From positions 778,501 through 842,500 of the forward strand of contig NZ_WIQK01000001.1 of NCBI RefSeq assembly GCF_015732155.1: a DNA stretch of 64,000 bases, read 5' to 3'. The translations under genes and the position numbers were made by a program. This DNA is from Pectinatus sottacetonis. Lineage in GTDB: Bacteria > Bacillota > Negativicutes > Selenomonadales > Selenomonadaceae. Below, piece by piece: positions 52,084 through 53,516 of this stretch (position 1 is the stretch's first letter; every line of letters begins with the position of its first letter). Under the pieces are notes generated by a model. It had not been told where the DNA came from. It searched no databases and saw only the letters and a list, made by a program, of their open reading frames with translations.

Positions 52084-53301
52084 TTATATTGTTTTTATTG
52101 ACGCTGTTTTTGCTGCTATTTTCCCTCGATGCTTCAACACCAGCGCGATAATAAAATTCACAACAAAACAACCCGAAAAGAAATATAATGTCAGTGTATA
52201 ACTATTTGTTGTTTCACGCAGCCAGGAAACAAGCACCGGCCCTACAACTCCAGCTATTCCCCAGGCCGTCAATATCCTGCCATGAATAGCACTAAGCTGC
52301 CTTGTCCCAAATATATCACTCAAATATGCCGGCATACAGGAAAATCCCCCGCCATAACAACTTATTATCAGAAATATCAGTCCCTGGAAAACAGCTGCAC
52401 TGTCTACCTGTGCCAGCTGCCAAAAAGCTCCTATTTCAATCAGGAAAAATAAAGCATACGTATAACCACGCCCTATATAATCAGAAATAGTCGACCAAAA
52501 AATCCGGCCAAACCCATTTAAAAGCCCAATTATCCCAACCATTGAAGCTGCCGCTGCCGGCGTCATTTTGACCACATCCTGTGCCATTGGTGACGCCACT
52601 GCCAGTAATCCTATACCACAAGTTATATTTACAAAAAATATCCACCACAATGCAGCAAACTGCCATGTCTTAAAAGCATCATGTGCTGTCATTCCCCTAT
52701 TCATTCTCGTAATATTCTTATCATCTGACACCGAAATGCTGACGGGTGGTTTCAGATATAATGCTGATGCGGTCATCACAACCATATATGCACAGCCCAA
52801 AATCAAAAAATTGCCAACAAGTCCATATGATGTCGTCAAATACTGCATAAGTGGACCAGCAATAAGACTGGCAAACCCAAACCCCATAATAGCAAGTCCC
52901 GTGGCAAATCCACGTTTATCAGGAAAATATTTTACCAAAGTAGAAACAGGTGTTATATATCCTACTCCTAATCCTACACCGCCAATGACACCATAAAACA
53001 TATATAATGCCCACAAGCTGTGCATTTTCAGCGCCAGTGCTGTTCCAAACATTCCCAGTACAAAAAATACCATTGAAACCAAACCGCTTTTTTTCGGTCC
53101 AAGTTTTTCGACAAAACTACCTAAAAACCCCGCTGACAACCCTAAAAATAAAATTGCCAGAGAAAATGTCCATGTAGTCTGTTTAAGAGAAAAACCCATT
53201 TGCTGCATGATCGGTCTGGTCAATACACTCCACGCATACACACTGCCAATACAAATATGGATTCCAATTGCTGATAGGGCAATAAGCCAACGATTTCTCA
53301 C
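52084..53301 (-). CDS. OFA-family (oxalate/formate antiporter-like) MFS transporter
   Basis: 405 aa with 12 helices. The family opening RWLIALSAIGIHICIGSVYAWSV and the AIMGFGFASLIAGPL and GFSCMPAYLSDIFGTR motifs are OFA-type. I use GTG at 53301, 9 bp after AAAGGAG; an upstream start would add a charged extension. OFA proteins exchange or import small monocarboxylates such as formate or oxalate. A probable ZTP riboswitch in its leader links it to folate one-carbon status, which fits formate, but the substrate is not proven. Confidence 0.87.
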   Translation of the reverse strand: MRNRWLIALSAIGIHICIGSVYAWSVLTRPIMQQMGFSLKQTTWTFSLAILFLGLSAGFLGSFVEKLGPKKSGLVSMVFFVLGMFGTALALKMHSLWALYMFYGVIGGVGLGVGYITPVSTLVKYFPDKRGFATGLAIMGFGFASLIAGPLMQYLTTSYGLVGNFLILGCAYMVVMTASALYLKPPVSISVSDDKNITRMNRGMTAHDAFKTWQFAALWWIFFVNITCGIGLLAVASPMAQDVVKMTPAAAASMVGIIGLLNGFGRIFWSTISDYIGRGYTYALFFLIEIGAFWQLAQVDSAAVFQGLIFLIISCYGGGFSCMPAYLSDIFGTRQLSAIHGRILTAWGIAGVVGPVLVSWLRETTNSYTLTLYFFSGCFVVNFIIALVLKHRGKIAAKTASIKTI

Positions 53302-53360
53302 TTTGCACTCTCCTTTAAAATAAGAAAATAAACTCAAGAGATAAAAGTCTGCCGGAAAAC

Positions 53361-53400
53361 AAAAAGACCGTCCAGGCTCAATATCTCTGCCCAGACGGTC
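53361..53400 (-). terminator. riboswitch-controlled terminator in the OFA leader
   Basis: Minus strand: GACCGTCTGGGC, 11-base loop, GCCTGGACGGTC, then TTTTT. The left arm overlaps the conserved 3' part of the ZTP-type aptamer, so ligand binding and termination are mutually exclusive. Confidence 0.85.
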
Positions 53401-53460
53401 GGCTTATCACTATAATACAGTCCATGTGGTCAATTCCACATTATCCGTCAGGCCTGTACT
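53385..53460 (-). promoter_or_regulatory. probable ZTP (pfl) riboswitch
   Basis: On the minus strand the leader contains CCTGACGGA, a hairpin ATGTGGAATTGACCACATGG, ACTGTA closing with TACAG, and then, after a linker, CCGACCGTCTGGGCAGAG. The last element and the GTGG-N-CCAC hairpin match the conserved halves of ZTP-sensing RNAs as I recall them. These regulate purine and one-carbon genes. The adjacent terminator supplies the expression platform (ON switch). A covariance search would settle it. Confidence 0.72.
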
Positions 53461-53487
53461 ATATCTGCACTTTTTTAATATGAGTTT

Positions 53488-53516
53488 ATTATAACAACCA
53501 ACTTCTATCTTGTCAA
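53488..53516 (-). promoter_or_regulatory. sigma-A promoter of the OFA transporter leader
   Basis: TTGACA, exactly 17 bases, TATAAT on the minus strand; transcription would begin near 53481, just before the aptamer. Confidence 0.88.

Follow-up and report, generated by a model that had tools for sequence, protein, structure and literature searches.

A predicted ZMP/ZTP riboswitch ahead of an MFS transporter gene, probably for formate import, in Pectinatus sottacetonis and related Negativicutes

Judged from its sequence, the RNA encoded upstream of an MFS transporter gene in the 64,000-nucleotide stretch of Pectinatus sottacetonis DNA analysed here (the window) is a ZMP/ZTP riboswitch, a typical representative of a class that is well studied. 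We infer ligand binding, the direction of switching, the substrate and its import, and consider it quite likely that this RNA is a transcriptional ON switch and that the gene under its control encodes a monocarboxylate carrier that brings formate into the cell. When 10-formyl-THF is short, AICAR (ZMP) and ZTP would build up, and binding of ZMP or ZTP to the nascent aptamer would stabilise P3 and the pseudoknot. With the strand held in P3 and the pseudoknot, no terminator would form and the transporter gene would be transcribed. The imported formate would be used by Fhs (formate-THF ligase) to restore 10-formyl-THF for purine synthesis, and a second ZTP riboswitch would raise PFL, so that formate is also made internally. 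Almost as likely, in our estimation, is the wider proposal that a widespread MFS clade labelled 'L-lactate' or 'oxalate/formate' consists of dedicated formate importers, which are controlled by ZTP in Negativicutes and accompanied by FdhF-like, FdhD, PurT or PFL genes in Bacilli and some other bacteria.

The elements of the locus (Table 1) are ordered on the minus strand as promoter, aptamer, terminator and MFS gene. The consensus promoter that the original prediction had placed before the aptamer is present, and TTGACA-17-TATAAT (53516-53488, minus strand) agrees with the consensus at 12 of 12 positions. The aptamer-like segment had been taken for a ZTP riboswitch, with a comparison against Rfam RF01750 as the suggested check; when the whole window was searched against 4227 families, this segment gave a strong, full-length match to that model (model positions 1-86, E 7.1e-7), so the prediction was not refuted on that count. 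The four remaining RNA matches at gathering level in the window are all tRNAs. The reuse of one element in the terminator stem was confirmed as well, since CCGACCGTCTGGGCAGAG (53402-53385) is common to the aptamer and the terminator, and the overlap between the two structures amounts to 12 nt. Computed folding gives -20.8 kcal/mol for the hairpin at 53401-53366, and for the leader at 53481-53355 it gives -41.0 in the terminator form versus -24.8 with the 3' arm single-stranded, values from which the pseudoknot is excluded. Folding of the 136-nt leader yields z = -3.34, with none of 200 shuffles as stable. A simple consensus scan did not report the terminator because the loop is 11 nt long, and the scan covers loops of 3-8 nt only. 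A trpB-motif match lying over the leader was set aside (24 bits, cut-off 59).

Table 1 Features of the riboswitch-transporter locus, in window coordinates
Feature	Position	Strand	Basis or remark
-35 hexamer TTGACA	53511..53516	minus	Consensus scan; 17-nt spacer to the -10 hexamer
-10 hexamer TATAAT, with TG in front	53488..53493	minus	Consensus scan
ZMP/ZTP aptamer RF01750 with P1, P2 and P3	53382..53465	minus	58.3 bits, gathering 39
J1/2 strand CUGACGGA	53444..53451	minus	Pseudoknot 5' side: GACG
P3 strand and loop GCCGACCGUCUGGGC	53389..53403	minus	CGUC pairs with J1/2; the terminator's 5' arm lies within it
Intrinsic terminator hairpin GACCGUCUGGGC / GCCUGGACGGUC	53366..53400	minus	Folding; arms at 53400-53389 (also the aptamer 3' strand) and 53377-53366
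Terminator U-run UUUUUGUUUU	53356..53365	minus	
Shine-Dalgarno AAAGGAGAG	53308..53316	minus	
MFS transporter gene, GTG start 53301, end 52084	52084..53301	minus	NF049980 'L-lactate MFS transporter'; putative formate importer

The pseudoknot of the window copy is formed by GACG in J1/2 and CGUC in the P3 loop. Of the family's 150 listed aptamers, 126 could be read on both strands by motif search; 118 of these carry GACG/CGUC, six GGCG/CGCC, and two odd combinations, GACG/UGUC in one and GGUG/CGUC in the other. GACG/CGUC occurs in 59 of the 60 MFS-linked copies that were read, and the six GGCG/CGCC copies are all located in front of pfl. Since the exchange of G-C for A-U affects both strands, it is compensatory and supports the pseudoknot. 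The other 24 aptamers were read by eye and look consistent, except for one (L129) that diverges at the J1/2 strand. A promoter with at least 10 of 12 consensus positions precedes 60 of the 64 MFS-linked aptamers versus 70 of 3200 shuffles. This is a better mark than at least 9 of 12, which is found in 63 of 64 leaders and provides weak evidence because 545 of 3200 shuffles attain it. For the terminator, a first measure, which took the free energy as far as any T4 run, was uninformative, with 42% of shuffles attaining it, and it was replaced by a count of the pairs formed by the aptamer 3' strand with an arm further downstream that is followed by a T-run. At least 10 such pairs are found in 62 of 64 leaders versus 192 of 1280 shuffles (15%); the two exceptions (G143 and G147) have kept the letters of the hairpin and lack TTTT right after it.

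The layout is that of a transcriptional ON switch, a direction that we infer from the overlap of the two structures and from published members of the family. Thermosinus carboxydivorans, in which such a switch has been studied, is also a member of the Negativicutes. Its RF01750 riboswitch is described as an ON switch in which pseudoknot and terminator compete, and the locus in the window resembles it in the aptamer, the pseudoknot between J1/2 and the loop, and the P3 strand that doubles in the intrinsic terminator (PMC7337938). A member from F. ulcerans is likewise presented as an ON switch with competition between pseudoknot and terminator (PMC7484762). The locus differs in that its predicted target is a transporter gene: the ZTP-linked genes named in the description of the class include purH, fhs, pfl, glyA, folD, genes for other steps of purine synthesis and metH (Weinberg 2010, PMC2864571), and a later account describes the targets as folate and purine genes (Sherlock 2020, PMC7266159).

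Conservation of the coupling was assessed in a sample of 189 genomes of the family, in which the MFS gene was counted at E <= 1e-30. A ZTP match is present in 84 of these genomes and the MFS gene in 70; 68 have both, two the MFS gene only, 16 a ZTP match only, and 103 neither. The linkage is more than chance, since the same layout, with a ZTP match on the same strand 47-162 nt ahead of the gene, recurs in 64 of the 70 genomes that carry the gene, among the 150 matches listed for 83 genomes, even though the counts are not independent because the genomes are related. In one of the 64 (G168) the match is just under gathering (38.9 bits). Weaker matches precede the MFS gene in G166 (34.3 bits), G167 (35.6), G169 (38.0) and G134 (36.3), and in G131 the upstream match reaches 27.6 bits only (E 0.5). 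The matches before the transporter in G134 (L152:360-497) and G131 (L153:376-604) span 138 and 229 nt, and these aptamers possibly contain long insertions. No ZTP match was found upstream of the MFS gene in G136 or upstream of the second MFS copies in G040 and G041 (the latter at C5:786386-787564). The ZTP-linked transporter of G041 (L189, C6:810996-812118) matches as two frames, possibly due to a frameshift.

A second collection, consisting of the best 80 of 581 related stretches with organism names, partly contains the same genomes again (L202 is G166 and L217 is G134), so the two sets overlap. Within these best 80, RF01750 is found at gathering level directly upstream of the gene in 26 of the 28 loci with Negativicutes titles and in none of the 52 others, and the two Negativicutes loci below gathering (L202 and L217) have sub-threshold matches. 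The coupled loci include Veillonella, Dialister, Megasphaera, Acidaminococcus, Phascolarctobacterium and a Sporomusaceae MAG, and the closest named relative of the transporter among the best 80 is that of Megamonas sp. UBA1796 (80%). In the Sporomusaceae MAG (L227), tandem ZTP aptamers occur before the same transporter (2235-2317 and 2352-2434, 58.2 and 62.1 bits). Five instances of tandem ZTP riboswitches are known according to PMC9481103, the consulted part of which makes no mention of this transporter as a target.

This MFS gene is the first gene after 64 of the 150 listed ZTP matches in the family, followed by AICAR transformylase (60) and PFL (14); rarer first genes are xpt-xanthine permease (6), FNT (3), fhs (2) and tatA-tatC (1). 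The names come from genome-wide family matches combined with family searches in which each cluster was represented by one or a few members, and the first gene is less sure for clusters whose ORF begins only after a long gap. In the genome from which the window is taken, the only other ZTP match is in front of pfl (pyruvate formate-lyase). In six genomes of genus g21 (L110, L111, L114, L122, L126 and L139), an ORF of one cluster starts 311-630 nt after the ZTP match; in L114 this ORF is the xanthine permease gene pbuX, with xpt between the ZTP match and pbuX. We read this arrangement as ZTP control of purine salvage, not of one-carbon supply. In G170 a ZTP aptamer (L146:151-231, 44.7 bits) precedes tatA and tatC, and the same contig carries fhs about 4.6 kb further downstream.

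The original prediction had called the transporter an oxalate/formate-type MFS protein, of which the MFS assignment stood. The NCBIfam cut-offs for OFA and oxalate/formate antiporter proteins were not reached (TIGR04259, 143.1 bits with cut-off 335; TIGR00890, 186.6 bits with cut-off 374.85). The protein does exceed the cut-off of NF049980 'L-lactate MFS transporter' (375.4 bits, cut-off 320), and among solved structures the L-lactate transporter SfMCT of Syntrophobacter fumaroxidans (6g9x) comes closest. However, the NF049980 label does not separate functions, because two PurT-linked proteins from Bacilli score higher with this model (464.4 and 454.5 bits) than SfMCT itself (406.2 bits, residues 10-392), and carriers of more than one substrate probably share the name. 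With pocket residues numbered in agreement with the structure papers (PMC6573034, PMC10070484, as far as consulted), the SfMCT/OxlT equivalents R280/R272, N276/N268 and Y119/Y124 are kept in the 64 ZTP-linked proteins, so a carboxylate should bind. The protein thus resembles SfMCT in being an MFS carrier with equivalents of R280, N276, Y119, Y331 and F335, and differs from it in sequence (29% identity over the shared part) and in its formate-gene and ZTP context. The lactate pocket of SfMCT (L145, F359, C362) was not found: L145 is replaced by Phe in 64 of 64, F359 by Leu in 63 of 64 with one gap, and C362 by Trp across the 64, again with one gap. The same F, L and W at 145, 359 and 362 occur in the named loci (one gap at 362, best 80 of 581). 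These substitutions fit a different substrate and are, by themselves, no proof of formate. W362 was considered as a formate signature and rejected, as Trp is present there in 20 of 30 SfMCT-like controls too; the pair F335 and L359 separates better, and this pair is also present in L307, the lone control with an FdhF-like gene nearby. SfMCT reportedly requires an aliphatic chain with three carbons or more (PMC6573034).

Formate as the substrate began as a guess from metabolic logic, and it is now supported by comparative genome context. Among 52 ZTP-free homologues from other bacteria, examined with flanks of up to 2.5 kb, neighbours include an FdhF/YdeP-family oxidoreductase (30), FdhD (16), PurT (9) and PFL (3), and 44 of the 52 are near at least one of these four, each of the neighbour families being named from one representative; that of the FdhF-like family exceeds the cut-off of the FdhF/YdeP model and falls short of the one set for the formate dehydrogenase alpha equivalog. 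Within 1.5 kb, such neighbours were found for 36 of 52 homologues versus one of 30 SfMCT-like controls (Fisher p 1.3e-9, relatedness ignored), the controls being the 30 best SfMCT-like loci from a 398-genome phylum sample, where some flanks end at contig ends. The linkage to formate metabolism is conserved, as expected of a class of formate transporters. Within the family, fhs lies directly upstream of the ZTP-MFS unit in G003, and in G038 a stretch of 5.7 kb contains folD, ZTP-fhs and ZTP-MFS in the same orientation, with a single other transporter-like ORF on the opposite strand in between. Overall, the context of the transporter favours formate over the L-lactate label of NCBIfam.

In three genomes (G007, G012 and G018) the slot behind the ZTP riboswitch is occupied by a gene of the FocA/FNT family of formate/nitrite channels (PF01226, about 100 bits), a protein family unrelated to MFS, and no MFS match is present. 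The three proteins score better with FocA models than with NirC models, yet stay under every NCBIfam FNT cut-off, so they are only probably formate channels. The FNT in this slot probably has the same physiological role as the MFS protein, which speaks for formate, and pfl and fhs among the other ZTP targets point the same way. An Fhs tree of 20 genomes places the three genomes in a single clade (support 1.0), so the replacement is a single event; it rests on this one clade, as nine more distant FNT relatives (L279-L287) have no ZTP match in front. The short, divergent FNT subfamily to which all these belong (L276-L287) is found in 12 of 380 genomes of the class, with ZTP matches only in L276-L278.

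It could be argued that the riboswitch acts as described and that the carrier imports L-lactate or pyruvate, which would supply one-carbon units indirectly, via pyruvate, PFL and formate. The NF049980 score, the nearest structure, the conserved carboxylate-binding Arg and Tyr, and the control of PFL by the other ZTP riboswitch of the same genome all agree with this. Nevertheless, we consider it unlikely. Supply to PFL is disfavoured because 24 of the 64 ZTP-MFS genomes have no PF02901 (PFL) match; some of these are incomplete assemblies, and six (G004, G005, G044, G135, G139 and G179) are listed as 100% complete. Of these 24, 23 have an Fhs match and 20 are without an FNT match. Furthermore, the position of nine of the 52 homologues next to PurT is understandable for a formate carrier and not for a lactate carrier, SfMCT L145 and F359 are replaced, and NF049980 ranks PurT-linked proteins above SfMCT. 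Other observations count against formate import itself. Across the 189 genomes, no anticorrelation of the MFS gene with PFL or FNT was detected (Fisher p 0.13 and 0.31), and the genome of the window, which has PFL as well as a separate FNT gene, shows no obvious need to import formate.

MFS carboxylate carriers are able to run both ways, and the FdhF-like, FdhD and PFL neighbours are compatible with either direction of transport. The protein might thus export formate or exchange it for another anion, with ZTP control serving charge balance or formate detoxification after induction of PFL. This is more doubtful still, as the same 24 genomes lack a PFL match and the neighbour PurT consumes formate. 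Moreover, induction of an exporter would be counterproductive, because ZTP signals a lack of formyl groups.

An oxalate:formate exchanger of the OxlT type, or another dicarboxylate transporter, is very improbable. The protein belongs to the same broad MFS group as OxlT, with similarity to structure 8hpj (E 5.1e-24), equivalents of R272, N268, Y124 and Y35, and a sub-cut-off match to TIGR04259. However, Q63 and Q56 are not conserved and the position of Lys355 is occupied by Trp in 63 of 64 proteins, with one gap, a replacement also seen in the named loci (best 80 of 581), and it is because of this missing lysine that oxalate exchange, as implied by the term 'oxalate/formate-type', has to be rejected; according to the consulted part of PMC10070484, Lys355 of OxlT binds the second carboxylate. 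None of the seven annotated neighbour clusters, which are a minority of the neighbours, is an oxalate-degradation gene. Least probable of all is a degenerate or non-functional ZTP-like RNA: relatives below gathering (27.6-38.0 bits) indicate that divergence or decay does occur, but the window copy scores 58.3 bits and has a compensatory pseudoknot, a consensus promoter and an overlapping terminator.

For the reading of the locus as a ZTP-controlled formate importer, literature searches yielded no report of a ZTP-controlled MFS or formate transporter, although the link may already have been published. The riboswitch itself is standard; the useful outcome is the assignment of a formate importer, which offers a testable function for a transporter clade that the NCBIfam model names a lactate transporter. 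If the assignment is true, the ZTP (folate-stress) regulon extends to nutrient uptake, and besides the synthesis of one-carbon units the alarmone would also control their acquisition from the environment, for example as formate produced by neighbours in the gut. Formate cross-feeding would then be expected under folate stress in Negativicutes associated with animals and humans, which by their titles are represented among the best 80 of 581 loci by Megamonas, Veillonella, Dialister, Selenomonas and Phascolarctobacterium.
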